From Hirudinaria manillensis (lineage: Eukaryota > Annelida > Clitellata > Hirudinida > Hirudinidae), in NCBI GenBank assembly GCA_034509925.1, contig CM067531.1, positions 8,645,819 to 8,709,818 on the forward strand: a stretch of 64,000 nt of DNA, read 5' to 3'. The position numbers and the translations under genes were made by a program. Shown in pieces: positions 6,377 through 63,891 of this stretch (position 1 is the first letter of the stretch; every line of letters begins with the position of its first letter). A model generated the notes under the pieces. The model made no database searches, was not told where the DNA came from, and saw nothing but the letters and a program-made list of their open reading frames with translations.

Positions 6377-7010
6377 ATTTTTAATGTCAACGAATTCTAT
6401 TTTGTTAATTTTAAGTTGAACAATGTCTCAGATTTATATCAGGGACTTCAACTCAAACCAACGCAGAACTCGCGATCAGGATTGATATTTTTTTTGATTT
6501 TTTTCATCGAGGTACTAATCCGATTGCGAAAAAGATTCTGAATATAATAATCGAAATTAATTAGCCGTTAATCAATAATCGGAACGCTATGATAATTTAT
6601 AATATTAATGGCGTTACTTAATATAAAAAACATTTTTAATAATTTAATGTTAAATAAAAATAAAATATATAAATAAATAAATAAAAAATAAATAAATAAA
6701 TTTATTTTAGATTTTAAAAAATTTTTGGCGTGTTTATTCGTAATTACGCGATTCGAAGCATTGGTTGAAAGCTGTTTCATATTCGTTATTTTTTTACTTT
6801 GCATCAGAATTTGGCATCTTTCACTCTAACATTAATAAAGATAATAATTCAAAAAATAAGGCAAAAAATTCGTTTGAAACATATATATTTGCACACGATA
6901 GCATTATATTTATATGTATGTTTATCCATTATATATGATTTGCAAGCGATATTCTGTTATAAATATATAATTCATTTTATTATTTAATAATTTTGAAGCA
7001 TATTTTAAAC
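6377..7010. other. Spacer between K1b and RING scrap
   Basis: K1 5' flank with the TATA-like box at 6433-6438, the shared upstream block near 6530-6600, and an AATA/AAATA simple tract near 6655-6705. No gene seen. Confidence 0.6.
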
Positions 7011-7344: not shown

Positions 7345-9258
7345 TTAGAGAGATTCTTCGATCTTGACATTCTCAACGTGTTCCAGGATCCATGGATGGT
7401 TCAATACTTGATCGGCCGTGTACCTTTTGAATGGATTCTTCACCAAAAGTTTTGAAATCAAATCTTTCGCTCCGTCTGATACGTGACTAAGCGATTGCCA
7501 GCACACTGCATATCGTTGCTTCGAAATGGAGGTGAAGAGTGAGTTAAGGCACTGAGCGCAAGTTTTATATGGGCAGTCGCAATCCCTTTGTGGAGCGAAG
7601 GGATGTTGCCTAAAGACTATTTCGAATAAAACAACTCCTAAACTCCACATGTCACACATCTTGGTGGAATGGATGCTATTTCCCATGCGAGTCTCAACGA
7701 CCTCTGGAGCCATGTAAGGAGGAGTTCCAACCACGGATAAGAAAACATGATCGTTGTGATTCTTGCAACATCGTTTCCTCAATGGTCCCGATGCTAATCC
7801 GAAGTCTATGAGTTTGACAGGAAATATGTCTTTGGTAGAGCACATGATGTTCTCTAATTTGATGTCTCTATGTGCTATACCTAATTGATGAAGATATTTC
7901 AAGGCCGATGCGACATCTCTTATAACTCTGGCCGTGTACTTTTCTTTCAGACATTTGTTGGCTGCAAGGAGATGAAACAACGATCCGTAATTTAATTTCT
8001 CCATGACTATGAACAGTTGGGTATCTTCCAAATAATATTCTTCCATCTGCACAAAGTTTGGATGTCCCTTTACCAATGACAATGTGTCGAATTCGACATT
8101 GGCATTGTCTACCGCTTCTTCATCATTCAGCTCGATGGTTTTAAGAGCATATTGGCGATTCGTACGTTTGTTGATGACAGTCTTAATATTGCCGCTCATA
8201 CCACAGCCAAGAACTTTCTTAGTAAGTTCGTAATTTGAATCTAGCGTTTTAAGCTTTTTTTCCTCCTTTTGAATAACAGGTGTGGCTTCTAAAGTTGGTA
8301 CGATATTCGTTTCCGTGGTCAGGGATTTATTGCATTTCATCTCGGCTTTGAACTGCAAATCGTTGCAGACGTTGTCCTTTTTTCCATATTTCTTGATCCA
8401 TGGATGCTGCAGAACATGTTCGGGAGTGTAACGTTTAGCTGGATCTTTTTCCAGCAGCTTTGATATGAGGTCCCTGGCCTCCGGAGAAATGTTATTCCAA
8501 GTAACCGGCATATCGAGACGTCCCTCTATGATTTTGAGAAACACGGCACTTAGGCAGAGGTGGCAAGAATCGTCTGTGCAGTTGTAGCATTTGCCCGAAT
8601 TTGTGAACGGTTTTGATCCAGCAAGAATTTCGAACATGAGCGCTCCAAAATTCCACATATCGCTTTGCTTGCCATAGTAATCCCTAATTTCGAAGAACCC
8701 TTTGGCAATCTCTGGAGCTAGGTATGATGGAACGTTTGAGAGCATTTCGTCATTGTTTTCGAGACGACAGTCTCCATTCTTCACGGCCATTTCAAATCCG
8801 CCCAATTTCACAGGAAGATGATCGCAATCAGATACAAATATGTTTTCAAATTTCAAGTTTCTATGGACAATATTACATTTGTGGACATGACGCAAGGCCT
8901 CTGCCACTCCTTTAAGTGTGCTTGCAGCAAATTGCTCAGTAACCGGTCCATGAAGCTGTAAATAATCTGTCAGCGATGCGTAGTTTAACTTTTCTGTGAT
9001 GATATATAGGTTTTTCTCCTCACGATAAAAGTCCTCCAAATGAACGATGTTTGCATGAGAAGAACATTGTGTCAGGACGCCTAACTCTTGCATTGCCGTT
9101 TCGAATCTATATTCGGGATGTAATGGAAGAGTTGTGAGCGTGTATTGGACTTTTGTCTTCTTGTCGACGACGGTATTCGTCGTCCTCCACCCGACCTCGT
9201 TTGTGTCATCCAGGATTTGGTATGTCCCGTAGAACTTCTCAATGTCGTCGAAACCCAT
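7345..9258 (-). CDS. K2a: tandem pseudokinase-kinase, MNK-like
   Basis: A 637-aa intronless protein with two kinase-like domains. Domain 1 (about 8-290) has lost catalysis: no glycine loop, the ATP lysine is T42, HRD has become HRN (132-134), and the DFG aspartate is G154. Domain 2 (about 340-630) is complete: K373, HRD (463-465), DFG (485-487), APE (517-519). Both domains keep the MNK-type cysteine insert (C224, C227, C232, C235 and C560, C562, C567, C570). Domain 2 is the closer relative of K1. The layout recalls JAK-type regulation of an active kinase by a pseudokinase; that role is inferred. It is followed by two poly(A) signals at 7245-7270 on the minus strand. Confidence 0.92.
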   Translation of the reverse strand: MGFDDIEKFYGTYQILDDTNEVGWRTTNTVVDKKTKVQYTLTTLPLHPEYRFETAMQELGVLTQCSSHANIVHLEDFYREEKNLYIITEKLNYASLTDYLQLHGPVTEQFAASTLKGVAEALRHVHKCNIVHRNLKFENIFVSDCDHLPVKLGGFEMAVKNGDCRLENNDEMLSNVPSYLAPEIAKGFFEIRDYYGKQSDMWNFGALMFEILAGSKPFTNSGKCYNCTDDSCHLCLSAVFLKIIEGRLDMPVTWNNISPEARDLISKLLEKDPAKRYTPEHVLQHPWIKKYGKKDNVCNDLQFKAEMKCNKSLTTETNIVPTLEATPVIQKEEKKLKTLDSNYELTKKVLGCGMSGNIKTVINKRTNRQYALKTIELNDEEAVDNANVEFDTLSLVKGHPNFVQMEEYYLEDTQLFIVMEKLNYGSLFHLLAANKCLKEKYTARVIRDVASALKYLHQLGIAHRDIKLENIMCSTKDIFPVKLIDFGLASGPLRKRCCKNHNDHVFLSVVGTPPYMAPEVVETRMGNSIHSTKMCDMWSLGVVLFEIVFRQHPFAPQRDCDCPYKTCAQCLNSLFTSISKQRYAVCWQSLSHVSDGAKDLISKLLVKNPFKRYTADQVLNHPWILEHVENVKIEESL

Positions 9259-9773
9259 ATTCGGTAATTTTAACTTGAAGTATATCAGGTTGAAATAAGA
9301 GGCTCAAAGAAATCAGAACACGAGACTAGGAATTGTTCGTTTTTTTACATTTTTTTCTACCCCGTTATGGAAAAAGATTCTGAATATAATATTCGAAATT
9401 AATTAGCCGTTACTCAATAATCGGAACGCTATGATAATTTGTGATAATAATGGCGTTATTTAATATAAAAAACTTGTTTGATTATTTAATGTGAAATAAA
9501 AATAAAATATATAAATAAATAAATAAAAAATAAATAAATAAATTTATTTATTTTAGACGATAAAAAATTTTTGGCGCGCTTATTCGCAAATACGCGATTC
9601 GAAGCATAGATTGAAAACTGTTTCGAATTCGATATTTTTATACTCTGCATGAGAATTTGGCGTCTTTTAGTTTAATATTAAAAAGGATAATAATTCAAAA
9701 ATTAATGCGAAAAAATTCGTTTGGAATATATATTTACTTACGATGACAATTGCATATGTACGTTTATGAATTT
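9259..9773. other. K2a upstream spacer
   Basis: Contains the block shared with K1 genes (about 9370-9440) and an AATA-rich simple tract near 9490-9550. It ends at the non-LTR insertion point after TTTATGAATTTATA. No gene seen. Confidence 0.6.
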
Positions 9774-10759
9774 ATATGCCGCTGCCACGCTGGTGGGTTA
9801 ATCGTCGAACGTCACCGGGCCGGATGCATACCACAGTATGTGTTTCGAGTTCACCTCCGGACTACAACCTGCCAAGACCAAGGATCAAGTTCCCCACAAC
9901 CAAAGAGAAAGTGGTATGGCATGAACTAGAGAAGGTCCTGCTACGAAAGCTGAAGAAGCTCCTGAAGACAGAGAGCTCAATGAAAGCCTTTACGGGCATC
10001 GTATTCGAGACTTGTATGGAAAAGTTTGGGCCCAAGGCCATCTGTTGCCGTGGCCAGGTCGCGAACGTCCAGAACAGACGTCAGAGAGAACTTCAGCAGC
10101 TGAGGAAGGAGAAGAAGGCGCTGCAACGCCGGTGGAAGCGGGAAAACGATGCAGAAAAAGAAGGCCTCTCCGTTATGTGGGGTGAGGTAAAGAAACGGGC
10201 GGCTGCTGTTCGGCAGGAGCCTAAGGTCAGGCAGAAGAAGTACGAAAAACGCAGAGCAAGAGCGAGTTTCTTCAAGGACCCTTACAAATACGGGAAATCA
10301 TTGCTCGACCCACCCAAGTCAGGGACTCTCAGCGTGGAGCAGACCGTGCTGGAAGACCACCTCATCCGAACGTACAGCGACGCCCACCGCAGCAGCCCAT
10401 TGGAAGGGAGATCAGACATCCCTTCAGTCCCTCAGCCTGTTAGCGCGTTCGACCTAACAACGCCGTCCCTCGAAGACATCAGGGCCATCGTGCGAAAGGC
10501 AAGGAATCGCTCAGCACCAGGAGCCAACGGATTCCCCTACCTGGTATACAAAAGGTGCCCCAACGTCATTAGGCTTCTCCACGGGTTCATCGAGGAGGCA
10601 TGAAGATCGGGTACCGTGAGTGACGAATGGAAGAGGGCCGAGGGCATTTTCATCAAAGGAGAAGAATTCCAGCAGCCTCAACCAATTCAGGCCGATTTCG
10701 CTGCTGAACGTGGAAGGAATGATATTCTTCGCCATCATGTCCCAGAGGCTCATGCACTT
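9774..10759 (+). mobile_element. Non-LTR retrotransposon 5' half, interrupted by Gypsy
   Basis: Encodes the N-terminal and early RT region. The frame from 9776 (starting MPLPRWW) contains a basic coiled region and then RNRSAPGANGFPYLVY, which is RT motif 1. It stops at 10601-10603, where the sister copies have TGG. The remaining part to 10759 is shifted and is cut by the Gypsy LTR just after the MHFV codons. The 3' half of the element is absent from this locus. Confidence 0.8.
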
Positions 10760-13986: not shown

Positions 13987-14925
13987 TTATTGAATATCGA
14001 TATCATAATCAGATATTCTGAACTTGGCATTCTCAACGTGTTCCAGGATCCATGGATGGTTCAATACTTGATCGGCCGTGTACCTTTTTGACGGGTCCTT
14101 CACCAAGAGCTTTGAAATCAAATCTTTCGCACCTGCTGACACGTAATAATCGGATTCACAGTACGTTTTATATTTATCGCACACAATGGACTGGAAAAGT
14201 GAATCGAGGCAGAATTTGCAATTTTGATGGCGACAGAAGCATTCCCTTTGTGGGGTGAATGGCAAATCACCATATATCATTTCGAATAAGACGACTCCAA
14301 GACTCCACATGTCACACATTATGGTGGAATGGATGTCATATCCTAAGCAAGTCTCTGCGACTTCTGGAGCCATGTATTGGGGAGTCCCAGCCTCAGATAT
14401 GAAAATATCATTCTTGTGATCCTCGCAACAAGGCTTTCTGGAAACTCCCGATGCTAATCCAAAGTCTATGAGCTTGATGGGAAATACATCTTTAGTGGAG
14501 CACATGATATTCTCTAATTTCACGTCTCTGTGTGCGATACCAAATTGGTGAAGGTATTTCAAGGCCAGCGCGACGTCTCTTATAACTATGGCTATGTCCA
14601 TCTCTTCCAATAATCCGTTGACCACCATGCGGTCGAACAACGAACCGTGGTTCAATTTCTCCATGACTATGAACAGATGGGAATCTTCCAAATAATAATC
14701 TTCCATCTGCACAAAGTTTGGATGACAAACTGCCAGCGACAAAACGTCCAATTCGACATTGGCGTTTTCTATTGCGCTGGGAGATTTCAACTCGATGGTC
14801 TTAAGGGCATATTGGCAATTTGTATGTCTGCTGACCACAGTCCTAATGCTGCCGTTCATACCTTTACCGAGGACTTGTTCGGTAAATTGGTAATTTGAAC
14901 TGAGCGTGTCATTGAAGCCGTCCAT
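13987..14925 (-). CDS. K1c: MNK-like Ser/Thr protein kinase
   Basis: A complete 312-aa copy with all catalytic residues and the four-cysteine insert intact. Copy-specific residues are R33, S50, V147, I150 (a unique substitution just before the KLIDFG strand), I202 and L240. It heads a unit that continues with RINGdelta and P331b and resembles the leftmost unit. TATA-like box at 14982-14987. Confidence 0.92.
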   Translation of the reverse strand: MDGFNDTLSSNYQFTEQVLGKGMNGSIRTVVSRHTNCQYALKTIELKSPSAIENANVELDVLSLAVCHPNFVQMEDYYLEDSHLFIVMEKLNHGSLFDRMVVNGLLEEMDIAIVIRDVALALKYLHQFGIAHRDVKLENIMCSTKDVFPIKLIDFGLASGVSRKPCCEDHKNDIFISEAGTPQYMAPEVAETCLGYDIHSTIMCDMWSLGVVLFEMIYGDLPFTPQRECFCRHQNCKFCLDSLFQSIVCDKYKTYCESDYYVSAGAKDLISKLLVKDPSKRYTADQVLNHPWILEHVENAKFRISDYDIDIQ

Positions 14926-15751: not shown

Positions 15752-16747
15752 TTATATCTCCCTTTTCACCGGATAACTCATTTCCCCCTGGGTTAGCTGT
15801 TCTTGAATCCAGGAGTCCATGCTGCTGATATCGGACTTTGGAGACGGCGGCATATGAGATAGATAATTACTCAGAGTTGATGGGGATCCTTCCATCTTCA
15901 CTGATGTGTCCTGGCTGAAACGATTGATCGTTTCAATTGGTTGCACAGGTGTCGATGCCAAGCGTATTCTCGATCGTTTTGCCGGTCTTTCGGCCTCTCC
16001 TGCATTACTGAGTAGATTACTAAGGGATTGAGGGACAGCGTAAAATGTCGTCAGACTGCAAGGAGTATCTTCCATTACATAATTAACTATGTTGTTAATA
16101 AACATGTTAAATTTACTATCATCCCAAGAATTATGCTTTTTGAATTTCGTCTTGACCTCAAGTGCCTTGTTAAGAATCTCCTCTTCCACAGTCATCAATG
16201 GGCGGAGAGCCATGAGCTCCTCCAAGGTTTGGTTATGCTTATTAATTGCAAAAACCAAATTGTTATTAATAACCAAATCAGCCATGTGTCGACTGGTCTC
16301 CATCACGCATTGCACGTAATCTTCGCCGTATCCAGGTGGTTTTGGTCCGAAGAGTGACTTAAATGAATCCGCAATAGAAGTACGGTCCATGGATTTACAA
16401 TGATCCAAGTAAAATTCCAGCTGTACTAGCCGAAATATATGGTCGGCCAGTTTCCTGTGGGTCGCCCATTGCTCTTCGTCGAATTCCTGGATAGGACATA
16501 TATTTAGTGGTTCGGAATTTTTATTCGAAGGCGCCGTTATCGGCCCCTTCGTAAAAAAAGACCTTTTCCCATTTTGGGGAGGGACTCCGTTCTGGTTGGT
16601 AACCTTGACCAAGACATAGCCGTTAGGCGGGTTATGTCGTTGGAGAGCATTTTCTATGGCCATTGATTTTTCAGCGGATGATTCACAGTGTTTCCTCTTT
16701 CTGTTAACAGAGCCGGCCAAAGGGGACTGATAATTTTTCGATTTCAT
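15752..16747 (-). CDS. P331b: 331-aa unknown, probably nuclear protein
   Basis: An intact ORF with the same features as P331a: two basic clusters, and VKME and VKRE sites. It differs from the other copies at SPLAGSVN near the N-terminus and has V in the variable TPxQPIET site. Like P331a, it is followed on the right by the flank that belongs to RING2 in the rightmost unit. Confidence 0.75.
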   Translation of the reverse strand: MKSKNYQSPLAGSVNRKRKHCESSAEKSMAIENALQRHNPPNGYVLVKVTNQNGVPPQNGKRSFFTKGPITAPSNKNSEPLNICPIQEFDEEQWATHRKLADHIFRLVQLEFYLDHCKSMDRTSIADSFKSLFGPKPPGYGEDYVQCVMETSRHMADLVINNNLVFAINKHNQTLEELMALRPLMTVEEEILNKALEVKTKFKKHNSWDDSKFNMFINNIVNYVMEDTPCSLTTFYAVPQSLSNLLSNAGEAERPAKRSRIRLASTPVQPIETINRFSQDTSVKMEGSPSTLSNYLSHMPPSPKSDISSMDSWIQEQLTQGEMSYPVKREI

Positions 16748-18928: not shown

Positions 18929-19867
18929 TTATTGAATATCGATGTCATAATCAGATATTCTGAACTTGGCATTCTCAACGTGTTCCAGGATCCATGGATG
19001 GTTCAATACTTGATCGGCCGTGTACCTTTTTGACGGGTCCTTCACCAAGAGCTTTGAAATCAAATCTTTCGCACCTGCTGACACGTAATAATCGGATTCA
19101 CAGTACGTTTTATATTTATCGCACACAATGGACTGGAAAAGTGAATCGAGGCAGAATTTGCAATTTTGATGGCGACAGAAGCATTCCCTTTGTGGGGTGA
19201 ATGGCAAATCACCATATATCATTTCGAATAAGACGACTCCAAGACTCCACATGTCACACATTATGGTGGAATGGATGTCATATCCTAAGCAAGTCTCTGC
19301 GACTTCTGGAGCCATGTATTGAGGAGTCCCAGCCTCCGATATGAAAATATCATTCTTGTGATCCTCGCAACAGGGTTTTCTCGAAACTCCCGATGCTAAT
19401 CCAAAGTCTATGAGCTTGACGGGAAATATATCTTTAGTGGAGCACATGATATTCTCTAATTTCACGTCTCTGTGTGCGATACCAAATTGGTGAAGGTATT
19501 TCAAGGCCAATGCGACATCCCTTATAACTATGGCTATGTCCATCTCTTCCAATAATCCGTTGACCACCATGCGGTCGAACAACGAACCGTGGTTTAATTT
19601 CTCCATGACTATGAACAGATGGGAATCTTCCAAATAATAATCTTCCATCTGCACAAAGTTTGGATGACACACAGCCAGCGACAAAACGTCCAATTCAACA
19701 TTGGCGTTTTCTATTGCTTTAGGAGATTTCAATTCGATGGTCTTAAGGGCATATTGGCAATTCGTATGTCTGCTGACCACAGTCCTAATGCTGCCGTTCA
19801 TACCTTTACCGATGACTTGTTCGGTAAATTGGTAATTTGAACTGAGCGTGTCATTGAAGCCGTCCAT
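18929..19867 (-). CDS. K1d: MNK-like Ser/Thr protein kinase
   Basis: A complete 312-aa copy. Specific residues are I19 (unique, just before the glycine loop), R33, K50 (shared only with K1h), I147, I202 and L240. Catalytic motifs and the cysteine insert are intact. TATA-like box at 19924-19929. Confidence 0.92.
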   Translation of the reverse strand: MDGFNDTLSSNYQFTEQVIGKGMNGSIRTVVSRHTNCQYALKTIELKSPKAIENANVELDVLSLAVCHPNFVQMEDYYLEDSHLFIVMEKLNHGSLFDRMVVNGLLEEMDIAIVIRDVALALKYLHQFGIAHRDVKLENIMCSTKDIFPVKLIDFGLASGVSRKPCCEDHKNDIFISEAGTPQYMAPEVAETCLGYDIHSTIMCDMWSLGVVLFEMIYGDLPFTPQRECFCRHQNCKFCLDSLFQSIVCDKYKTYCESDYYVSAGAKDLISKLLVKDPSKRYTADQVLNHPWILEHVENAKFRISDYDIDIQ

Positions 19868-20799: not shown

Positions 20800-22710
20800 T
20801 TAGAGAGATTCTTCGATCTTGACATTCTCAACGTGTTCCAGGATCCATGGATGGTTCAATACTTGATCGGCCGTGTACCTTTTGAATGGATTCTTCACCA
20901 AAAGTTTTGAAATCAAATCTTTCGCTCCGTCTAATACGTGACTAAGCGATTGCCAGCACACTGCATATCGTTGCTTCGAAATGGAGGTGAAGAGTGAGTT
21001 AAGGCACTGAGCGCAAGTTTTATATGGGCAGTCGCAATCCCTTTGTGGAGCGAAGGGATGTTGCCTAAAGACCATTTCGAATAAAACAACTCCTAAACTC
21101 CACATGTCACACATCTTGGTGGAATGGATGTTATTTCCCATGCGAGTCTCAACGACCTCTGGAGCCATGTAAGGAGGAGTTCCAACCACGGATAAGAAAA
21201 CATGATCGTTGTGATTCTTGCAACATCGTTTCCTCAATGGTCCCGATGCTAATCCGAAGTCTATGAGTTTGACAGGAAATATGTCTTTGGTAGAGCACAT
21301 GATGTTGTCTAATTTGATGTCTCTGTGTGCTATACCTAATTGATGAAGATATTTCAAGGCCGATGCGACATCTCTTATAACTCTGGCCGTGTACTTTTCT
21401 TTCAGACATTTGTTGGCTGCAAGGAGATGAAACAACGATCCGTAATTTAATTTCTCCATGACTATGAACAGTTGGGTATCTTCCAAATAATATTCTTCCA
21501 TCTGCACAAAGTTTGGATGTCCCTTTACCAATGACAATGTGTCGAATTCGACATTGGCATTGTCTACCGCTTCTTCATCATTCAGCTCGATGGTTTTAAG
21601 AGCATATTGGCGATTCGTACGTTTGTTGATGACAGTCTTAATATTGCCGCTCATACCACAGCCAAGAACTTTCTTAGTAAGTTCGTAATTTGAATCTAGC
21701 GTTTTAAGCACGTCCTCCTTTTGAATAACAGGTGTGGCTTCTAAAGTTGGTACGATATTCGTTTCCGTGGTCAGGGATTTATTGCATTTCATCTCGGCTT
21801 TGGACTGCAAATCGTTGCAGACGTTGTCCTTTGTTTCGTACTTCACGATCCAAGGATGCTGCAGAACTTGTTCGGGAGTGTAACGTTTAGCTGGATCTTT
21901 TTCCAGCAGCTTTGAAATGAGGTCCCTGGCCTCCGGAGAAATGTTATTCCAAGTAACCGGCATATCGAGACGTCCCTCTATGATTTTGAGAAACACGGCA
22001 CTTAGGCAGAGGTGGCAAGAATCGTCTGTGCAGTTGTAGCATTTGCCCGAATTTGTGAACGGTTTTGATCCAGCAAGAATTTCGAACATGAGCGCTCCAA
22101 AATTCCACATATCGCTTTGCTTGCCATAGTAATCCCTAATTTCGAAGAACCCTTTGGCAATCTCTGGAGCTAGGTATGATGGAACGTTTGAGAGCATTTC
22201 GTCATTGTTTTCGAGACGACAGTCTCCATTCTTCACGGCCATTTCAAATCCGCCCAATTTCACAGGAAGATGTTTGCTATCAGATACAAATATGTTTTCA
22301 AATTTCAAGTTTCTATGGACAATATTACATTTGTGGACATGACGCAAGGCCTCTGCCACTCCTTTAAGTGTGCTTGCAGCAAATTGCTCAGTAACCGGTC
22401 CATGAAGCTGTAAATAATCTGTCAGCGATGCGTAGTTTAACTTTTCTGTGATGATATATAGGTTTTTCTCCTCACGATAAAAGTCCTCCAAATGAACGAT
22501 GTTTGCATGAGAAGAACATTGTGTCAGGACGCCTAACTCTTGCATTGCCGTTTCGAATCTATATTCGGGATGTAATGGAAGAGTTGTGAGCGTGTATTGG
22601 ACTTTTGTCTTCTTGTCGACGACGGTATTCGTCGTCCTCCACCCGACCTCGTTTGTGTCATCCAGGATTTGGTATGTCCCGTAGAACTTCTCAATGTCGT
22701 CGAAACCCAT
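20800..22710 (-). CDS. K2b: tandem pseudokinase-kinase, MNK-like
   Basis: 636 aa, one residue shorter in the linker (QKEDVLKT instead of QKEEKKLKT). Domain 1 shows the same losses as K2a (T42, HRN, GFE). Domain 2 keeps K, HRD and DFG, but the catalytic loop reads HRDIKLDN where the other copies have LEN, a conservative change. Domain 1 ends WIVKYETKDN rather than WIKKYGKKDN. All eight cysteines of the two inserts are retained. Confidence 0.92.
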   Translation of the reverse strand: MGFDDIEKFYGTYQILDDTNEVGWRTTNTVVDKKTKVQYTLTTLPLHPEYRFETAMQELGVLTQCSSHANIVHLEDFYREEKNLYIITEKLNYASLTDYLQLHGPVTEQFAASTLKGVAEALRHVHKCNIVHRNLKFENIFVSDSKHLPVKLGGFEMAVKNGDCRLENNDEMLSNVPSYLAPEIAKGFFEIRDYYGKQSDMWNFGALMFEILAGSKPFTNSGKCYNCTDDSCHLCLSAVFLKIIEGRLDMPVTWNNISPEARDLISKLLEKDPAKRYTPEQVLQHPWIVKYETKDNVCNDLQSKAEMKCNKSLTTETNIVPTLEATPVIQKEDVLKTLDSNYELTKKVLGCGMSGNIKTVINKRTNRQYALKTIELNDEEAVDNANVEFDTLSLVKGHPNFVQMEEYYLEDTQLFIVMEKLNYGSLFHLLAANKCLKEKYTARVIRDVASALKYLHQLGIAHRDIKLDNIMCSTKDIFPVKLIDFGLASGPLRKRCCKNHNDHVFLSVVGTPPYMAPEVVETRMGNNIHSTKMCDMWSLGVVLFEMVFRQHPFAPQRDCDCPYKTCAQCLNSLFTSISKQRYAVCWQSLSHVLDGAKDLISKLLVKNPFKRYTADQVLNHPWILEHVENVKIEESL

Positions 22711-23188: not shown

Positions 23189-26100
23189 ATATGCCGCTGC
23201 CACGCTGGTGGGTTAATCGTCGAACGTCACCGGGCCGGATGCATACCACAGTATGTGTTTCGAGTTCACCTCCGGACTACAACCTGCCAAGACCAAGGAT
23301 CAAGTTCCCCACAACCAAAGAGAAAGTGGTATGGCAAGAACTAGAGAAGGTCCTGCTACGAAAGCTGAAGAAGCTCCTGAAGACAGAGAGCTCAATGAAA
23401 GCCTTTACGGGCATCGTATTCGAGACTTGTATGGAAAAGTTTGGGCCCAAGGCCATCTGTTGCCGTGGCCAGGTCGCGAACGTCCAGAACAAACGTCAGA
23501 GAGAACTTCAGCAGCTGAGGAAGGAGAAGAAGGCGCTGCAACGCCGGTGGAAGCGGGCAAACGATGCAGAAAAAGAAGGCCTCTCCGTTCTGTGGGGTGA
23601 GGTAAAGAAACGGGCGGCTGCTGTTCGGCAGGAGCCTAAGGTCAGGCAGAAGAAGTACGAAAAACGCAGAGCAAGAGCGAGTTTCTTCAAGGACCCTTAC
23701 AAATACGGGAAATCAATGCTCGACCCACCCAAGTCAGGGACTCTCAGCGTGGAGCAGACCGTGCTGGAAGACCACCTCATCCGAACGTACAGCGACGCCC
23801 ACCGCAGCAGCCCATTGGAAGAGAGATCAGACATCCCATCGGTCCCTGAGCCTGTCAGCGCGTTCGACCCAACAACGCCGACCCTCGACGACATCAGGGC
23901 CATCGTGCGAAAGGCAAGGAATCGCTCAGCACCAGGAGCCAACGGAATCCCCTACCTGGTATACAAAAGGTGCCCCAACGTCATTAGGCTTCTCCACGGG
24001 TTCATCGAGGAGGCATGGAGATCGGGTACCGTGAGTGACGAATGGAAGAGGGCCGAGGGCTTTTTCATCCCCAAGGAGAAGAACTCCAGCAGCCTCAACC
24101 AATTCAGGCCGATTTCGTTGCTGAACGTGGAAGGAATGATATTCTTCGCCATCATGGCCCAGAGGCTCATGCACTTCGTGATGGCAAATCAGTACGTCAA
24201 TGCCTCAGTGCAGATAGGAGGGGTCCCTGACGTCCCAGGGTGTATAGAACACACCACCATGTTGTGGGAGGCAATTCAGCAAGCCAAAAGCAACCGCCTC
24301 AGTCTGTACGTCGTCTGGCTGGACCTGGCCTACGTCTATGGATCCGTACCCCATCGGCTCATCTGGGACGCGTTGGAGAGTCACCACGTGCCGGACCACG
24401 TGATCAGAATCCTCCAAGATTATTTCAACGGGTTCGAGATGTAGTTTACGACAGGACAGTTCACTACAGACTGGGTTCGGTTGCAAGTGGGTATCGCCAT
24501 GGGTTGTGCCATTTCACCCGCCCTTTTCGTGCTGGCTATGCAGGTCATCCTCAGTACAGCTGGCCCGATCATTCCGGAGGCTAGTATCGGCAATAGACTG
24601 ACCATGCTACAAATCAAGGCCTTTATGGATGATATCACTCTCGTCAAGAATAGGAAACAAGTCATGCAAGGGGCCCTGGACAGGCTAAATGACATGCTTG
24701 GGCGGTGCAGAATGGCATTCAAGCCCGCGAAATCTAGAAGCCCATCCTCACCAGAGGCGAAATTCGCGAGGATGTGGTCTTCTCGGTGGCAGGGCAGATA
24801 GTACCAACGGTGGCGGAAGAACCCGTGAAAAGCCTAGGAAGGGTATTTGACGAAATCCTGACCGACAAATGCCAGGAAAAAGCCATCAAAAGGCTCGCCC
24901 AGGAAGGGATGGAGGCAATCGACAAAGTCCCTCTGCCAGGAAAATTCAAGGTGTGGCTGTCTCAGTTTGTTCTGCTTCCAAGACTCCTATGGCCTCTCAC
25001 CATCTATGAGATCGGCCTGTCTTCCGTCGAGTCGTTGGAAAGGAGCTACAGCCGGAGAGTAAGATTATGCCTGGGTTTTCCGCCGGGACTGTCGTCGGTT
25101 GCTCTCTACAGCAAGAGCGCAAAACTGCGCCTTCCGTTACGATCCATCGTCGAACAATACAAGATTGGAAAGATCCGAACGCAGCGGATGATGAACAACT
25201 CCGCGGATACATTAATCCGGGAAGTTGCGCCGCCGCTGAGATCAGGAAGAAAGTTCAAGGCCCAGGAGGAGATCACCAAGTCGGAAGAAGCCCTGAAATT
25301 CGAAGAGATAAGAGGTCCGGTGCAAAGCGACCGTCACGGCGTGGGCTGGAACCATTTCACAAGATGGTCAAAGGCGAGCTCTCCACTTAGAGCTACGATG
25401 GTGATCCAGGAAAGGAGGAGGGAAATTGAGAGCGCGCGAATAGCCAAGGCAGTTCAGGAGTCCCAACAAGGGCAATGGACCATGTGGGAAGAAGTCCTCC
25501 AGAGATCGATAACGTGGCAGGAAATATGGAACATGTCCCCATTCAGGCTGGCTTTCGTTGTTCGCGAGGTCTATGACGTGCTGCCCTCGCGCGACAACCT
25601 GCAACGATGGAGGATGGCACAGAACATTGAGTGCACGCTCTGTGGAGAAAGACAAACACTCCGTCACGTACTGTCTGGCTGCAGTTACGCCCTGGCGCAT
25701 GGTCGCTTTACATGGCGTCACAACCAAGTTCTGCTGGCCGTAACCGAAGCCATCAAGAAAACCTGCTCCAGCGCCAACGCAAGAGAATCGGTTCCACAGA
25801 GGGGGACATACTTCTTACGAGAGGGCGCCTCCCAATGCGCAAAGAACAGATGTGCGTCAAAAAGGAGCCAACTCCTCGAGATTGCCAACGATTGGGAGAT
25901 AGCGGCAGATATCGCAGGGTTGAGGCACTATCCCCAGGTGCTAGCAGAAAGTGCACTCGTCCTGGCAGAGTTGACAGTGCCCTGGGAAGATAGAATGGAT
26001 CTTAGCAACAGTCTGAAAGAGAAAAATACCTGGACCTAACGATGGACCTCAGACAGAAGGGGTGCAGGGTTTGTTTCCTTGCCATAGAGGTGGGAGCAAG

Positions 26101-27951: not shown

Positions 27952-28890
27952 TTATTGAATATCAATATCATAATCAGATATTCTGAATTTGGCATCCTCA
28001 ACGTGTTCCAGGATCCATGGATGGTTCAATACTTGATCGGCCGTGTACCTTTTTGACGGGTCCTTCACCAAGAGCTTTGAAATCAAATCTTTCGCACCTG
28101 CTGACACGTAATAATCGGATTCACAGTACGTTTTATATTTATCGCACACAATGGACTGGAAAAGTGAATCGAGGCAGAATTTGCAATTTTGATGGCGACA
28201 GAAGCATTCCCTTTGTGGGGTGAATGGCAAATCACCATATATCATTTCGAATAAGACGACTCCAAGACTCCACATGTCACACATTATGGTGGAATGGATG
28301 TCATATCCTAAGCAAGTCTCTGCGACTTCTGGAGCCATGTATTGAGGAGTCCCAGCCTCCGATATGAAAATATCATTCTTGTGATCCTCGCAACAAGGCT
28401 TTCTGGAAACTCCCGATGCTAATCCAAAGTCTATGAGCTTGACGGGAAATATATCTTTAGTGGAGCACATGATATTCTCTAATTTCACGTCTCTGTGTGC
28501 GATACCAAATTGGTGAAGGTATTTCAAGGCCAATGCGACATCCCTTATAACTATGGCTATGTCCATCTCTTCCAATAATCCGTTGACCACCATGCGGTCG
28601 AACAACGAACCGTGGTTCAATTTCTCCATGACTATGAACAGATGAGAATCTTCCAAATAATAATCTTCCATCTGCACAAAGTTTGGATGACAAACTGCCA
28701 GCGACAAAACGTCCAATTCGACATTGGCGTTTTCTATTGCGCTGGGAGATTTCAACTCGATGGTCTTAAGGGCATATTGGCAATTCGTATGTTTGCTGAC
28801 CACAGTCCTAATGCTGCCGTTCATACCTTTACCGAGGACTTGTTCGGTAAATTGGTAATTTGAACTGAGCGTGTCATTGAAGCCGTCCAT
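27952..28890 (-). CDS. K1e: MNK-like Ser/Thr protein kinase
   Basis: A complete 312-aa copy, identical in protein sequence to K1f. Specific residues are K33, S50, I147, I202, L240 and D299 (shared only with K1f). Catalytic motifs and the cysteine insert are intact. Confidence 0.92.
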   Translation of the reverse strand: MDGFNDTLSSNYQFTEQVLGKGMNGSIRTVVSKHTNCQYALKTIELKSPSAIENANVELDVLSLAVCHPNFVQMEDYYLEDSHLFIVMEKLNHGSLFDRMVVNGLLEEMDIAIVIRDVALALKYLHQFGIAHRDVKLENIMCSTKDIFPVKLIDFGLASGVSRKPCCEDHKNDIFISEAGTPQYMAPEVAETCLGYDIHSTIMCDMWSLGVVLFEMIYGDLPFTPQRECFCRHQNCKFCLDSLFQSIVCDKYKTYCESDYYVSAGAKDLISKLLVKDPSKRYTADQVLNHPWILEHVEDAKFRISDYDIDIQ

Positions 28891-30230: not shown

Positions 30231-31169
30231 TTATTGAATATCAATATCATAATCAGATATTCTGAATTTGGCATCCTCAACGTGTTCCAGGATCCATGGA
30301 TGGTTCAATACTTGATCGGCCGTGTACCTTTTTGACGGGTCCTTCACCAAGAGCTTTGAAATCAAATCTTTCGCACCTGCTGACACGTAATAATCGGATT
30401 CACAGTACGTTTTATATTTATCGCACACAATGGACTGGAAAAGTGAATCGAGGCAGAATTTGCAATTTTGATGGCGACAGAAGCATTCCCTTTGTGGGGT
30501 GAATGGCAAATCACCATATATCATTTCGAATAAGACGACTCCAAGACTCCACATGTCACACATTATGGTGGAATGGATGTCATATCCTAAGCAAGTCTCT
30601 GCGACTTCTGGAGCCATGTATTGAGGAGTCCCAGCCTCCGATATGAAAATATCATTCTTGTGATCCTCGCAACAAGGCTTTCTGGAAACTCCCGATGCTA
30701 ATCCAAAGTCTATGAGCTTGACGGGAAATATATCTTTAGTGGAGCACATGATATTCTCTAATTTCACGTCTCTGTGTGCGATACCAAATTGGTGAAGGTA
30801 TTTCAAGGCCAATGCGACATCCCTTATAACTATGGCTATGTCCATCTCTTCCAATAATCCGTTGACCACCATGCGGTCGAACAACGAACCGTGGTTCAAT
30901 TTCTCCATGACTATGAACAGATGAGAATCTTCCAAATAATAATCTTCCATCTGCACAAAGTTTGGATGACAAACTGCCAGCGACAAAACGTCCAATTCGA
31001 CATTGGCGTTTTCTATTGCGCTGGGAGATTTCAACTCGATGGTCTTAAGGGCATATTGGCAATTCGTATGTTTGCTGACCACAGTCCTAATGCTGCCGTT
31101 CATACCTTTACCGAGGACTTGTTCGGTAAATTGGTAATTTGAACTGAGCGTGTCATTGAAGCCGTCCAT
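30231..31169 (-). CDS. K1f: MNK-like Ser/Thr protein kinase
   Basis: A complete 312-aa copy with the same protein as K1e. The flanking DNA is also nearly identical, so this is the most recent duplication seen in the array (or an assembly duplicate). TATA-like box at 31226-31231. Confidence 0.92.
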   Translation of the reverse strand: MDGFNDTLSSNYQFTEQVLGKGMNGSIRTVVSKHTNCQYALKTIELKSPSAIENANVELDVLSLAVCHPNFVQMEDYYLEDSHLFIVMEKLNHGSLFDRMVVNGLLEEMDIAIVIRDVALALKYLHQFGIAHRDVKLENIMCSTKDIFPVKLIDFGLASGVSRKPCCEDHKNDIFISEAGTPQYMAPEVAETCLGYDIHSTIMCDMWSLGVVLFEMIYGDLPFTPQRECFCRHQNCKFCLDSLFQSIVCDKYKTYCESDYYVSAGAKDLISKLLVKDPSKRYTADQVLNHPWILEHVEDAKFRISDYDIDIQ

Positions 31170-32688: not shown

Positions 32689-34602
32689 TTAGAGAGATTC
32701 TTCGATCTTGGCATTCTCAACGTGTTCCAGGATCCATGGATGGTTCAACACTTGATCGGCCGTGTACCTTTTGAATGGATTCTTCACCAAAAGTTTTGAA
32801 ATCAAATCTTTCGCTCCGTCTGATACGTGACTAAGCAATTGCCAGCACACCGCATATCGTTGCTTCGAAATGGAGGTGAAGAGTGAGTTAAGGCACTGAG
32901 CGCAAGTTTTATATGGGCAGTCGCAATCCCTTTGTGGAGCGAAGGGATGTTGCCTAAAGACCATTTCGAATAAAACAACTCCTAAACTCCACATGTCACA
33001 CATCTTGGTGGAATGGATGTTATTTCCCATGCGAGTCTCAACGACCTCTGGAGCCATGTAAGGAGGAGTTCCAACCACGGATAAGAAAACATGATCGTTG
33101 TGATTCTTGCAACATCGTTTCCTCAATGGTCCCGATGCTAATCCGAAGTCTATGAGTTTGACAGGAAATATGTCTTTGGTAGAGCACATGATGTTCTCTA
33201 ATTTGATGTCTCTGTGTGCTATACCTAATTGATGAAGATATTTCAAGGCCGATGCGACATCTCTTATAACTCTGGCCGTGTACTTTTCTTTCAGACATTT
33301 GTTGGCTGCAAGGAGATGAAACAACGATCCGTAATTTAATTTCTCCATGACTATGAACAGTTGGGTATCTTCCAAATAATATTCTTCCATCTGCACAAAG
33401 TTTGGATGTCCCTTTACCAATGACAATGTGTCGAATTCGACATTGGCATTGTCTACCGCTTCTTCATCATTCAGCTCGATGGTTTTAAGAGCATATTGGC
33501 GATTCGTACGTTTGCTGATGACAGTCTTAATATTGCCGCTCATACCACAGCCAAGAACTTTCTTAGTAAGTTCGTAATTTGAATCTAGCGTTTTAAGCTT
33601 TTTTTCCTCCTTTTGAATAACAGTTGTGGCTTCCAAAGTTGGTACGATATTCGTTTCCGTGGTCAGGGATTTATTGCATTTCATCTCGGCTTTGAACTGC
33701 AAATCGTTGCAGACGTTGTCCTTTATTCCATATTTCTTGATCCAAGGATGCTGCAGAACTTGTTCGGGAGTGTAACGTTTTGCTGGATCTTTTTCCAGCA
33801 GCTTTGAAATGAGGTCCCTGGCCTCCGGAGAAATGTTATTCCAAGTAACCGGCATATCGAGACGTCCCTCTATGATTTTGAGAAACACGGCACTTAGGCA
33901 GAGGTGGCAAGAATCGTCTGTGCAATTGTAGCATTTGCCCGAATTTGTGAACGGTTTTGATCCAGCAAGAATTTCGAACATGAGCGCTCCAAAATTCCAC
34001 ATATCGCTTTGCTTGCCATAGTAATCCCTAATTTCGAAGAACCCTTTGGCAATCTCTGGAGCTAGGTATGATGGAACGTTTGAGAGCATTTCGTCATTGT
34101 TTTCGAGACGACAGTCTCCATTCTTCACGGCCATTTCAAATCCGCCCAATTTCACAGGAAGATGTTCGCTATCAGATACAAATATGTTTTCAAATTTCAA
34201 GTTTCTATGGACAATGTTACATTTGTGGACATGACGCAAGGCCTCTGCCACTCCTTTAAGTGTGCTTGCAGCAAATTGCTCAGTAACCGGTCCATGAAGC
34301 TGTAAATAATCTGTCAGCGATGCGTAGTTTAACTTTTCTGTGATGATATATAGGTTTTTCTCCTCACGATAAAAGTCCTCCAAATGAACGATGTTTGCAT
34401 GAGAAGAACATTGTGTCAGGACGCCTAACTCTTGCATTGCCGTTTCGAATCTATATTCGGGATGTAATGGAAGAGTTGTGAGCGTGTATTGGACTTTTGT
34501 CTTCTTGTCGACGACGGTATTCGTCGTCCTCCACCCGACCTCGTTTGTGTCATCCAGGATTTGGTATGTCCCGTAGAACTTCTCAATGTCGTCGAAACCC
34601 AT
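32689..34602 (-). CDS. K2c: tandem pseudokinase-kinase, MNK-like
   Basis: 637 aa from the conserved ATG at 34600-34602. The open frame extends 17 codons further (to 34653), but only to a TTG, and only because an extra TA upstream shifts the frame; the conserved start is preferred. Domain 1 is degenerate as in K2a and domain 2 is complete. Specific changes are ISKRT in domain 2 and CWQLLSHV after the cysteine insert. It lies next to the ghost locus, so this unit has K2 without an adjacent K1. Confidence 0.92.
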   Translation of the reverse strand: MGFDDIEKFYGTYQILDDTNEVGWRTTNTVVDKKTKVQYTLTTLPLHPEYRFETAMQELGVLTQCSSHANIVHLEDFYREEKNLYIITEKLNYASLTDYLQLHGPVTEQFAASTLKGVAEALRHVHKCNIVHRNLKFENIFVSDSEHLPVKLGGFEMAVKNGDCRLENNDEMLSNVPSYLAPEIAKGFFEIRDYYGKQSDMWNFGALMFEILAGSKPFTNSGKCYNCTDDSCHLCLSAVFLKIIEGRLDMPVTWNNISPEARDLISKLLEKDPAKRYTPEQVLQHPWIKKYGIKDNVCNDLQFKAEMKCNKSLTTETNIVPTLEATTVIQKEEKKLKTLDSNYELTKKVLGCGMSGNIKTVISKRTNRQYALKTIELNDEEAVDNANVEFDTLSLVKGHPNFVQMEEYYLEDTQLFIVMEKLNYGSLFHLLAANKCLKEKYTARVIRDVASALKYLHQLGIAHRDIKLENIMCSTKDIFPVKLIDFGLASGPLRKRCCKNHNDHVFLSVVGTPPYMAPEVVETRMGNNIHSTKMCDMWSLGVVLFEMVFRQHPFAPQRDCDCPYKTCAQCLNSLFTSISKQRYAVCWQLLSHVSDGAKDLISKLLVKNPFKRYTADQVLNHPWILEHVENAKIEESL

Positions 34603-39830: not shown

Positions 39831-40769
39831 TTATTGAATATCAATGTCATAATCAGATATTCTGAACTTGGCATTCTCAACGTGTTCCAGGATCCATGGA
39901 TGGTTCAATACTTGATCGGCCGTGTACCTTTTTGACGGGTCCTTCACCAAGAGCTTTGAAATCAAATCTTTCGCACCTGCTGACACGTAATAATCGGATT
40001 CACAGTACGTTTTATATTTATCGCACACAATGGACTGGAAAAGTGAATCGAGGCAGAATTTGCAATTTTGATGGCGACAGAAGCATTCCCTTTGTGGGGT
40101 GAATGGCAAATCACCATATATCATTTCGAATAAGACGACTCCAAGACTCCACATGTCACACATTTTGGTGGAATGGATGTCATATCCTAAGCAAGTCTCT
40201 GCGACTTCTGGAGCCATGTATTGAGGAGTCCCAGCCTCCGATATGAAAATATCATTCTTGTGATCCTCGCAACAAGGCTTTCTGGAAACTCCCGATGCTA
40301 ATCCAAAGTCTATGAGCTTGACGGGAAATATATCTTTAGTGGAGCACATGATATTCTCTAATTTCACGTCTCTGTGTGCGATACCAAATTGGTGAAGGTA
40401 TTTCAAGGCCAATGCGACATCCCTTATAACTATGGCTATGTCCATCTCTTCCAATAATCCGTTGACCACCATGCGGTCGAACAACGAACCGTGGTTCAAT
40501 TTCTCCATGACTATGAACAGATGGGAATCTTCCAAATAATAATCTTCCATCTGCACAAAGTTCGGATGACACACTGCCAGCGACAAAACGTCCAATTCGA
40601 CATTGGCGTTTTCTATTGCGCTGGGAGATTTCAACTCGATGGTCTTAAGGGCATATTGGCAATTCGTATGTCTGCTGACCACAGTCCTAATGCTGCCGTT
40701 CATACCTTTACCGAGGACTTGTTCGGTAAATTGGTAATTTGAACTGAGCGTGTCATTGAAGCCGTCCAT
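39831..40769 (-). CDS. K1g: MNK-like Ser/Thr protein kinase
   Basis: A complete 312-aa copy. Specific residues are R33, S50, I147, K202 (otherwise seen only in K1b among the full copies) and L240. Its residue combination is a mix of the K1b and K1e patterns. Catalytic motifs and the cysteine insert are intact. Confidence 0.92.
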   Translation of the reverse strand: MDGFNDTLSSNYQFTEQVLGKGMNGSIRTVVSRHTNCQYALKTIELKSPSAIENANVELDVLSLAVCHPNFVQMEDYYLEDSHLFIVMEKLNHGSLFDRMVVNGLLEEMDIAIVIRDVALALKYLHQFGIAHRDVKLENIMCSTKDIFPVKLIDFGLASGVSRKPCCEDHKNDIFISEAGTPQYMAPEVAETCLGYDIHSTKMCDMWSLGVVLFEMIYGDLPFTPQRECFCRHQNCKFCLDSLFQSIVCDKYKTYCESDYYVSAGAKDLISKLLVKDPSKRYTADQVLNHPWILEHVENAKFRISDYDIDIQ

Positions 40770-41726: not shown

Positions 41727-43640
41727 TTAGAGAGATTCTTCGATCTTGGCATTCTCAACGTGTTCCAGGATCCATGGATGGTTCAACACTTGATCGGCCG
41801 TGTACCTTTTGAATGGATTCTTCACCAAAAGTTTTGAAATCAAATCTTTCGCTCCTTCTGATACGTGACTAAGCGATTGCCAGCACACTGCATATCGTTG
41901 CTTCAAAATGGAGATGAAGAGTGAGTTAAGGCACTGAGCGCAAGTTTTATATGGGCAGTCGCAATCCCTTTGTGAAGCGAAGGGCTGTTGCCTAAAGACC
42001 ATTTCGAATAAAACAACTCCTAAACTCCACATGTCACACATCTTGGTGGAATGGATGCTATTTCCCATGCGAGTCTCAACGACCTCTGGAGCCATGTAAG
42101 GAGGAGTTCCAACCACGGATAAGAAAACATGATCGTTGTGATTCTTGCAACATCGTTTTCTCAATGGTCCCGATGCTAATCCGAAGTCTATGAGCTTCAC
42201 AGGAAATATGTCTTTGGTAGAGCACATGATGTTCTCTAATTTGATGTCTCTGTGTGCTATACCTAATTGATGAAGATATTTCAAGGCCGATGCGACATCT
42301 CTTATAACTCTGGCCGTGTACTTTTCTTTCAGACATTTGTTGGCTGCAAGGAGATGAAACAACGATCCGTAATTTAATTTCTCCATGACTATGAACAGTT
42401 GGGTATCTTCCAAATAATATTCTTCCATTTGCACAAAGTTTGGATGTCCCTTTACCAATGACAATGTGTCGAATTCGACATTGGCATTGTCTACCGCTTC
42501 TTCATCATTCAGCTCGATGGTTTTAAGAGCATATTGGCGATTCGTACGTTTGTTGATGACAGTCTTAATATTGCCGCTCATACCACAGCCAAGAACTTTC
42601 TTAGTAAGTTCGTAATTTGAATCTAGCGTTTTAAGCTTTTTTTCCTCCTTTTGAATAACAGTTGTGGCTTCTAAAGTTGGTACGATATTCGTTTCCGTGG
42701 TCAGGGATTTATTGCATTTCATCTCGGCTTTGAACTGCAAATCATTGCAGACGTTGTCCTTTTTTCCATATTTCTTGATCCAAGGATGCTGCAGAACTTG
42801 TTCGGGAGTGTAACGTTTAGCTGGATCTTTTTCCAGCAGCTTTGAAATGAGGTCCCTGGCCTCCGGAGAAATGTTATTCCAAGTAACCGGCATATCGAGA
42901 CGTCCCTCTATGATTTTGAGAAACACGGCACTTAGGCAGAGGTGGCAAGAATCGTCTGTGCAGTTGTAGCATTTGCCCGAATTTGTGAACGGTTTTGATC
43001 CGGCAAGAATTTCGAACATGAGCGCTCCAAAATTCCACATATCGCTTTGCTTGCCATAGTAATCCCTAATTTCGAAGAACCCTTTGGCAATCTCTGGAGC
43101 TAGGTATGATGGAACGTTTGAGAGCATTTCGTCATTGTTTTCGAGACGACAGTCTTTATTCTTCACGGCCATTTCAAATCCGCCCAATTTCACAGGAAGA
43201 TGTTTGCTATCAGATACAAATATGTTTTCAAATTTCAAGTTTCTATGGACAATATTACATTTGTGGACATGACGCAAGGCCTCTGCCACTCCTTTAAGTG
43301 TGCTTGCAGCAAATTGCTCAGTAACCGGTTCATGAAGCTGTAAATAATCTGTCAGCGATGCGTAGTTTAACTTTTCTGTGATGATATATAGGTTTTTCTC
43401 CTCACGATAAAAGTCCTCCAAATGAACGATGTTTGCATGAGAAGAACATTGTGTCAGGACGCCTAACTCTTGCATTGCCGTTTCGAATCTATATTCGGGA
43501 TGTAATGGAAGAGTTGTGAGCGTGTATTGGACTTTTGTCTTCTTGTCGACGACGGTATTCGTCGTCCTCCACCCGACCTCGTTTGTGTCATCCAGGATTT
43601 GGTATGTCCCGTAGAACTTCTCAATGTCGTCGAAACCCAT
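41727..43640 (-). CDS. K2d: tandem pseudokinase-kinase, MNK-like
   Basis: 637 aa from the conserved ATG at 43638-43640; the longer open frame to 43691 starts at a TTG and is not preferred. Domain 1 is degenerate and domain 2 complete. This is the most divergent K2: it has HEPVTEQ, VKNKDC, QQPFASQ, FISILKQ and HVSEGAK in place of the common residues. The cysteine inserts are intact. Confidence 0.92.
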   Translation of the reverse strand: MGFDDIEKFYGTYQILDDTNEVGWRTTNTVVDKKTKVQYTLTTLPLHPEYRFETAMQELGVLTQCSSHANIVHLEDFYREEKNLYIITEKLNYASLTDYLQLHEPVTEQFAASTLKGVAEALRHVHKCNIVHRNLKFENIFVSDSKHLPVKLGGFEMAVKNKDCRLENNDEMLSNVPSYLAPEIAKGFFEIRDYYGKQSDMWNFGALMFEILAGSKPFTNSGKCYNCTDDSCHLCLSAVFLKIIEGRLDMPVTWNNISPEARDLISKLLEKDPAKRYTPEQVLQHPWIKKYGKKDNVCNDLQFKAEMKCNKSLTTETNIVPTLEATTVIQKEEKKLKTLDSNYELTKKVLGCGMSGNIKTVINKRTNRQYALKTIELNDEEAVDNANVEFDTLSLVKGHPNFVQMEEYYLEDTQLFIVMEKLNYGSLFHLLAANKCLKEKYTARVIRDVASALKYLHQLGIAHRDIKLENIMCSTKDIFPVKLIDFGLASGPLRKRCCKNHNDHVFLSVVGTPPYMAPEVVETRMGNSIHSTKMCDMWSLGVVLFEMVFRQQPFASQRDCDCPYKTCAQCLNSLFISILKQRYAVCWQSLSHVSEGAKDLISKLLVKNPFKRYTADQVLNHPWILEHVENAKIEESL

Positions 43641-59344: not shown

Positions 59345-60250
59345 ACGAAATAAATAAGTTAGCAAAATATTAATAAATAAAATTGTTTTTATCATAATAT
59401 TATTTATATTTTATATCACATATTTTATTATAAATAAATATATATACATATACATTACTATAACATATATATAATTAATTATTTATTAATTATTAAATAA
59501 TTATTAGTTACATTTAACATTCCGATTCTCCTGCATTCTTCTCAAGCTACATCACCACCATATCCTCTTTACTCACACACACCGCCACCAACACCACCAC
59601 CAGAGCCAGAACCCTTCCACGTGGTTATCTGCTTCCAATAGATCCGTGATGCTCTGATTTTTTTAAAACGAAGTCTATGATGGAGCCGTCGAGGCGTGAA
59701 CCCAGTCGTGCGTGAATGTCTTCGCTAGTCACCCAGCCGTGCCGTCGGTCGCTCGTTCTTTCCATCGGCACCATCATCATCGTATTCATCAGCACCAGCA
59801 GGTGCAGCTGCGTAATCATAGTCGTCTTCTTTCTTACCATCATCGTCCTCATCATCCTCATTATCGTCATGTGAGCAAATTCGACCGTCAAACCCTTTAA
59901 TAAACCCCAAGTCACCGAACCGTGGACCCACCTGGTCACCTCTCTGCAGGTGCACTTTCACTCAACTCGTCAGAGAACCGAGAATGAGTCTCCAAACGCC
60001 TCCTCTTCACTCCCGTTCACTCCTTTTCACTCCGTCCACTCCGCATCTACAAGTCCGAAGGGAGAAGTGAAACGTGTGGGAAATTTTTTTCGTGCCCCGC
60101 CGCCAGAGGGCGCGACCGCGAGCGAAGCGTAATTGCATTATTTAATTAGTTCCATATTTCTTTTAAATCCTGAGACACTAATGTTGTTTAGGACGACGCT
60201 CCTGGAAATTAGATCTCCAATTGACCACTGGTGCCTTTGGGGAGGAAAGA
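54307..60250. other. Non-array region, no supported gene
   Basis: Single-copy DNA with many microsatellites: TCA/CGT tracts at 55743-55767 and 56070-56098, (AAT)n at 57619-57672, GATGAC at 58601-58677, (GAT)n at 58824-58868, (AAT)n at 58997-59023 and (ATT)n at 59307-59343. Some GC-richer stretches (about 55000-55600 and 59600-60120) could hold exons or promoters, but the ORFs there look unrelated to known proteins. Confidence 0.6.
58824..58868. repeat. (GAT)n microsatellite
   Basis: A perfect trinucleotide run of about 15 units in AT-rich, non-coding surroundings. Confidence 0.9.
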
Positions 60251-60252
60251 CT

Positions 60253-60886: not shown

Positions 60887-63891
<3,005 letters not shown>

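Follow-up and report, generated by a model that had tools for sequence, protein, structure and literature searches.

Tandem MNK-type pseudokinase-kinase of Hirudinaria manillensis with a predicted dead domain under purifying selection

We describe K2, a two-domain kinase encoded in a tandem array in the genome of Hirudinaria manillensis. Its N-terminal domain (domain 1) is predicted to be catalytically dead, and its C-terminal domain (domain 2) is an intact kinase. Both halves belong to the MNK group. Purifying selection on domain 1 is about equal to that on domain 2. The layout itself is already known from JAKs, GCN2, and plant TKPs. K2 is a real, selected variant of this layout and is apparently restricted to one lineage.

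The window is the whole stretch of 64,000 nucleotides that was analysed (C6:8645819-8709818 of a 148-Mb genome). Its minus strand carries a tandem array of intronless kinase ORFs. The array contains seven complete single-domain ORFs (K1; 312 aa) and four two-domain ORFs (K2; 636-637 aa) (Table 1). K2 copy 1 is intronless and encodes 637 aa with a single stop, at its end, in the standard code. Pfam finds Pkinase twice along the chain. The preliminary description had reported the same pattern in all four K2 copies. The pattern is indeed present in each, but copies 2 to 4 are 98% identical to copy 1, so the window copies are not independent. The window gave no match against Rfam at gathering thresholds.

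Table 1. Coordinates of K2, K1, and related features in the window
Feature	Position	Strand	Basis
K2 copy 1, pseudokinase-kinase tandem ORF, 637 aa	7345..9258	-	translation, Pfam
K2 copy 2	20800..22710	-	ORF list
K2 copy 3	32689..34602	-	ORF list
K2 copy 4	41727..43640	-	ORF list
Domain 1, predicted pseudokinase, residues 1-291	8386..9258	-	alignment; MNK2 match; predicted fold
T42 at ATP lysine position	9133..9135	-	alignment
N134 at HRD aspartate position	8857..8859	-	alignment
G154 at DFG aspartate position (motif GFE)	8797..8799	-	alignment
Domain 1 cysteine knuckle C224-C227-C232-C235 (CxxCx4CxxC)	8554..8589	-	invariant, 8 distinct domain 1s
Linker, residues 292-337	8248..8385	-	length 2 to 56 aa across family
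Domain 2, intact MNK-type kinase with DFG, residues 338-637 + stop	7345..8247	-	alignment
Domain 2 cysteine knuckle C560, C562, C567, C570	7549..7581	-	absent in K2_C3, P0005
K1 copy 1, single active-type kinase akin to domain 2, 312 aa	5438..6376	-	tree
Other K1 copies	13987-14925, 18929-19867, 27952-28890, 30231-31169, 39831-40769, 48302-49240	-	ORF list
K2 copy 1 upstream region common to K1 copy 1	9370..9778	-	86% over 416 columns
K1 copy 1 counterpart of K2 copy 1 upstream region	6528..6937	-	same alignment

The window also contains other ORFs. A 331-aa ORF occurs on the minus strand at 1407-2402, 15752-16747, and 50598-51593. Its first copy has no Pfam match. The ORF has 31 matches in the same genome, several of which, at 36-40% identity, are no more than about 27 kb from contig ends, on C2, C3, C5, C9, C10, and C11; others are internal. 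The family may be partly subtelomeric, since several matches sit near contig ends. TTAGGG gave matches at various sites, including some close to each end of C1; TTAGG gave none. Reverse-transcriptase-like pieces lie on the plus strand, opposite to and upstream of K2 copies, at 9776-10603, 23191-24444, and 24909-26039. They recur along with the K1/K2 array. In Pfam, 23191-24444 matches RVT_1 below the cut-off, and 24909-26039 matches zf-RVT above it. The piece at 9776-10603 has no Pfam match, yet its start resembles that of 23191-24444. The ORF at 60178-61020 on the minus strand is largely an IHPS-type repeat and is probably a simple-sequence ORF.

The K2 family has 12 members, 8 of them clearly distinct. 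They are the four window copies, one ORF from C5, two near-identical ORFs from C4, one ORF from C3 (K2_C3), and P0002-P0005. The last four are ENA proteins from another species with 53-63% identity to K2 copy 1. A search of other genomes for the two-domain layout had been proposed, and these four proteins carry both the layout and the losses. They were the only proteins with a two-domain MNK layout among the best 120 of 719 and the best 120 of 883 matches. The other matches aligned over at least 80% of the query were P0008, P0009, and P0012 (both lists) and P0134 (883 list), with 24-25% identity. The protein search scored 7994 candidates sharing most words and may miss intron-split genes. The own-genome search (71 matches, best candidates scored) found no stand-alone domain 1 gene and no broken K2 copy. 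The eight own-genome K2 ORFs, which were chosen as open frames, have no internal stop. The titles of the literature matches listed included no MNK-type pseudokinase-kinase. The earlier statement that none was known is consistent with the literature and protein matches listed, among which an MNK-derived pseudokinase-kinase appears undescribed.

Other kinase loci were seen in the same genome. A separate CAMK-like two-domain ORF of 632 aa with reversed order lies at C8:7071017-7072867 (L010 4015-5913, minus strand). Its domain 1 retains K, HFD, and DLG. Its domain 2 looks dead because its motifs are HLN and GFG. A single-domain sister (L010 1299-2360) adjoins it. C8:3218655-3267020 contains 26 head-to-tail kinase matches with a spacing of about 1.9 kb and nearly equal scores. 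Two ORFs read from this array encode identical proteins, and we take its kinases, by eye, to be DYRK-like. A smaller array at C11:8124348-8140118 contains nine kinase matches, also DYRK-like by eye.

Domain 1 has T42 at the site of the ATP lysine, N134 at the site of the HRD aspartate, and GFE (154-156) at the DFG site. The glycine loop is absent, and V22 and R25 occupy positions at which Gly is found in 26 and 21, respectively, of the 26 active domains used for comparison. Alignment bears out each of the four losses given in the preliminary description (glycine loop, ATP lysine, HRD aspartate, and DFG aspartate), as well as the presence of all four insert cysteines (224/227/232/235). The VAIK lysine, HRD aspartate, and DFG aspartate are lost in 12/12 members. 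Nine domain 1 columns (T42, E58, N134, G154, E156, and the four cysteines) are identical in 12/12. Catalytic residues are partly retained. Domain 1 keeps the aC Glu58 and R133, with K136 in 10/12 members and N139 in 11/12. Judged from its residues, domain 1 would be catalytically dead. Its predicted model (pLDDT 85.7, pTM 0.86) has a full kinase fold. The Foldseek and VIA-align lists for this model contain CAMK-type and Aurora chains, with no MNK chain among the best 50 matches. The absence of MNK from the best structural matches is no evidence against an MNK origin.

Domain 1 is under purifying selection. Omega was computed on own-genome DNA, and P0002-P0005 were compared as proteins. The NG86 omega of domain 1 was 0.21-0.27, with dS of 0.61-0.99, when four distinct own-genome sequences (K2 copy 1, C5, C4a, and C3) were compared in all six pairings. 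For domain 2 it was 0.285-0.376 in the three pairs without C3; the C3 pairs were saturated at synonymous sites. Codon ML omega over eight own-genome rows was 0.31 (MG) and 0.34 (GY) for domain 1 and 0.32 (both) for domain 2. The MG lnL of domain 1 was -3179.4 with omega free and -3242.2 at omega = 1. Neutral evolution of domain 1 (dN/dS near 1), named beforehand as the result that would speak against the proposal, is rejected (omega 0.31; 2dlnL 125). Fixing omega at 1 costs 62.7 log units in domain 1 and 59.3 in domain 2. In the same six proteins (C3-type excluded), 133/287 columns are invariant in domain 1 and 132/289 in domain 2. As a crude control, 500 copies of domain 1 with random substitutions (0.3 per site) had a mean of 8 stops, and none was stop-free. 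Within the array, the four copies show 8 synonymous codon differences in domain 1 and 7 in domain 2, and 6 and 12 nonsynonymous ones, counts too small to draw on. Neutral decay of domain 1 is ruled out by NG86, ML omega, the invariant columns, and the stop-free frames. The proposal that the dead domain is retained for structural or regulatory reasons is supported by omega of 0.21-0.34 and the rejection of omega = 1.

Some constraint on domain 1 may have been gained. Across the eight distinct domain 1s, 9 columns are fixed for a residue that departs from the active consensus, and 20 columns are newly fixed. The newly fixed columns include P45/L46/P48/E49 after strand 3 and N169/D170/M172 in the T-loop. 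A laxer control of eight domain 2 rows has 0 and 3. The fairer six-protein count gives 8 changed-fixed and 37 newly fixed columns in domain 1 and 0 and 23 in domain 2. The newly fixed signal is partly shared descent, because domain 2 also has 23. Only part of the gained constraint sets domain 1 apart, and some of it is explained by common ancestry along a long stem.

Domain 2 is an intact kinase that lacks MNK controls. The 11-row alignment is invariant at G351, G353, G356, K373, E389, K467, and N470, at HRD (463-465), and at DFG (485-487). Domain 2 had been called fully conserved. This holds for its catalytic motifs but not for the DFD of MNKs, where it has DFG, or for the knuckle, which is lost in C3-type members. 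The MNK-type DFD is absent from K2, with DFG in domain 2 and GFE in domain 1. In MNKs, DFD excludes ATP, and a D-to-G change relaxes this (PMC3326643). MNKs are activated by MAPKs, and their flanks dock eIF4G and MAPKs (PMC3326643). In the 6 members aligned, neither K2 domain has Thr-Pro sites corresponding to the TTPELTTP stretch of MNK1. The K2 chain is nearly flankless. The first strand of domain 1 starts from residue 13 in the model, and the Pfam match of domain 2 ends at residue 624 of 637, which leaves 13 residues. K2 contains neither the N-terminal eIF4G-binding region nor the C-terminal MAPK-binding region of MNKs. An MNK-like gene in the same genome (C4:1997384-1998490) keeps DFD. It was matched in separate pieces and apparently bears introns. 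A Met that might provide an internal start for domain 2 occurs in the linkers of P0002-P0005 and all four window copies but not in those of the C5, C4, and C3 ORFs.

The cysteine knuckle is conserved in domain 1. Twelve domain 1 columns have Cys in at least 3/8 distinct members, and the invariant ones are exactly the four knuckle cysteines. All four are present in 12/12 members. The domain 2 knuckle is present in members other than K2_C3 and P0005. These two C3-type members have a linker of 2 aa. They have lost the domain 2 knuckle (P0005 keeps 1/4 Cys) and retained the domain 1 knuckle. Of all single observations, this one points most strongly to a role of the knuckle in domain 1 itself. By analogy with MNK, the knuckle would bind zinc; the zinc site of Mnk2 appears as a title cited in PMC3326643 and PMC7215568.

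Sequence matches and trees place both halves of K2 in the MNK group. The best solved-structure match by sequence for the whole chain was MNK1 (2.5e-58), with domain 2 as the best stretch. For domain 1 alone it was MNK2 (6.4e-43), followed by phosphorylase kinase (1.1e-30). A 30-domain tree of MNK-type kinases only recovered all nine domain 1 rows as one clade (100/100; stem 1.32). Since these rows are monophyletic, the simplest history has a single loss of catalysis that preceded the divergence of the two species and of the paralog types. When 11 MSK/CDPK/RAD53/other CAMK rows were included in a second tree, the 22 MNK-type rows, including domain 1, formed one clade (99/96). A tree with domain 1 outside this clade was rejected (AU p 0.003).

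Domain 1 has probably been shed twice, in K1 and in S_C4_11M, a single-domain gene on C4. Both nest inside the domain 2 clade of the 30-domain tree. The AU test rejected trees in which the seven non-C3 domain 2 rows exclude them (p 0.006) or all nine domain 2 rows group together without them (p 0.00006); both groupings were chosen with the tree already in view. The single-domain S_C4_11M starts with the K2 N-terminal MGFGD. It also contains a 27-aa piece (56%) that resembles the part of domain 1 immediately preceding the knuckle; its E-value was 0.002 when 15.8 kb were searched. It is therefore most simply K2 minus most of domain 1. No remnant of domain 1 was found before K1 (K1 copy 1 examined). 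Domain 1 is dispensable in some copies, because K1 and S_C4_11M encode a domain 2 kinase only. The upstream regions of K1 copy 1 and K2 copy 1 are 86% alike over 416 columns, which may reflect duplication instead of co-regulation. The domain 1 of P0005 is 89% identical to that of P0003 and 71% to that of K2_C3. Its domain 2 is 74% identical to that of K2_C3 and 46% to that of P0003. The pseudokinase half of P0005 may have been exchanged between paralogs, which stays a suspicion because the AU test did not reject a domain 1 clade of K2_C3 and P0005 (p 0.12).

MNK1 and MNK2 are closest to K2 by sequence, and both K2 domains share with them the cysteine knuckle and the length of the insert that follows APE. 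Unlike them, K2 has two kinase domains, DFG/GFE for DFD, no TTP sites, and no docking flanks. K2 has its pseudokinase domain immediately N-terminal to the intact kinase in one chain, as in JAKs (JH2-JH1). JAKs are tyrosine kinases with further domains, whereas both halves of K2 are MNK-type and the chain contains nothing else. Membership of the JAK family by descent was rejected. No FERM or SH2 was found among the six Pfam families matched, and MNK/CAMK chains lead the structure matches.

GCN2 (YKD-KD) also has a degenerate domain N-terminal to a Ser/Thr kinase. It is not known to be MNK-derived. Its activation requires contact of the degenerate domain with the kinase, and it has a tRNA-sensing domain, unlike K2 (PMC4014428). 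Plant TKPs such as WTK1/Yr15 (92 plant proteins) resemble K2 in having two tandem kinase domains and no other domain (PMC6170490). They are regarded as products of gene duplication or fusion that then took on a new function (PMC6170490). They differ in their plant kinase lineages, and the extracts of that source mention no cysteine knuckle (PMC6170490). K2 was rejected as a plant TKP, both of its domains lying in the MNK-type clade. RSK/MSK kinases also have two kinase domains in one chain, and the animal matches P0009 and P0012 cover 90-91% of the query, but at 24-25% identity. RSK/MSK combine one AGC and one CAMK domain, and neither K2 domain groups with either domain of P0009 or P0012, whose domains also fall outside the MNK-type clade. 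Membership of K2 in the RSK/MSK family was therefore rejected.

We think it probable that K2 acts as a Ser/Thr kinase whose own chain includes a pseudokinase regulator working in cis. Domain 1 would be a kinase-like, metal-braced scaffold unable to use ATP. It would contact domain 2 or its partners and set activity or placement. It may stand in for the lost MNK controls, namely, DFD, the MAPK-phosphorylated Thr-Pro sites, and the docking flanks. Domain 2 lacks all three, from which we infer that control passed to domain 1, as in JAK or GCN2. K1 would be the same kinase minus domain 1, and both a controlled kinase (K2) and an uncontrolled one (K1) would be expressed from the array behind partly common upstream sequence. 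A role of domain 1 as an inhibitor, as in JAKs, is slightly favoured over one as an activator, because domain 2 itself lacks the MNK autoinhibitory motif. The full-length K2 prediction has a pTM of 0.49. The step from a conserved domain to a regulatory one as in JAKs is made by analogy.

Constraint alone fits regulation, folding support, or scaffolding in trans alike. Domain 1 might be a scaffold or a dock for substrates or partners, including regulation of K1 in trans, with no direct action on domain 2. It would then replace the eIF4G and MAPK docking of MNKs. The missing docking flanks of domain 2 agree with such a role, as do the roughly 400 bp of upstream sequence common to K1 copy 1 and K2 copy 1 and a linker of 2 to 56 aa, which would suit a loose tether. 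We nevertheless consider it rather unlikely: domain 1 precedes domain 2 on the same chain in 12/12 members, and the 71 own-genome matches (best candidates scored) include no gene for domain 1 by itself. A purely structural role, in which domain 1 is kept only to prevent misfolding of the fusion and regulates nothing, is improbable. It accounts for constraint all over the fold and for the retained kinase core residues. However, several of the newly fixed columns are in loops, and domain 2-type kinases stand alone with open frames in the same genome (K1 and S_C4_11M), so the kinase can exist without domain 1.

The traceable loss of domain 1 in S_C4_11M, its probable loss in K1, and the 98% likeness of the window copies could suggest a decaying fusion with copies merely of recent common origin. 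The low omega, the rejection of omega = 1, and the eight open own-genome ORFs, set against a random control that was never stop-free, leave very little room for this explanation, which is refuted for the family as a whole. Some pseudokinases are enzymes, and domain 1 retains E58, R133, and mostly K136. Activity by an unconventional route is still the least credible explanation, as the glycine loop, ATP lysine, and metal-binding aspartate are all replaced and K136 and N139 vary.

Cis regulation by domain 1 can be extended to a tentative history, which we put forward as possible and somewhat doubtful. A JAK-like module may have arisen independently in Ser/Thr kinases. An intronless MNK lineage would have swapped its inherited controls for a dead, metal-braced sister domain. 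Single genes would have escaped repeatedly by losing domain 1, and the controlled and escaped kinases would now lie in one tandem array.

Few pseudokinase-kinase chains are known. JAK and GCN2 of animals are old families, in which the birth of the arrangement is not observable. Among the matches listed, the K2 fusion was found only in two related genomes. In one genome, a parent-type MNK exists alongside both the fused and the single-domain forms, and the contribution of the pseudokinase is therefore directly testable. The K2 family also permits asking whether the knuckle metal matters for a dead domain.
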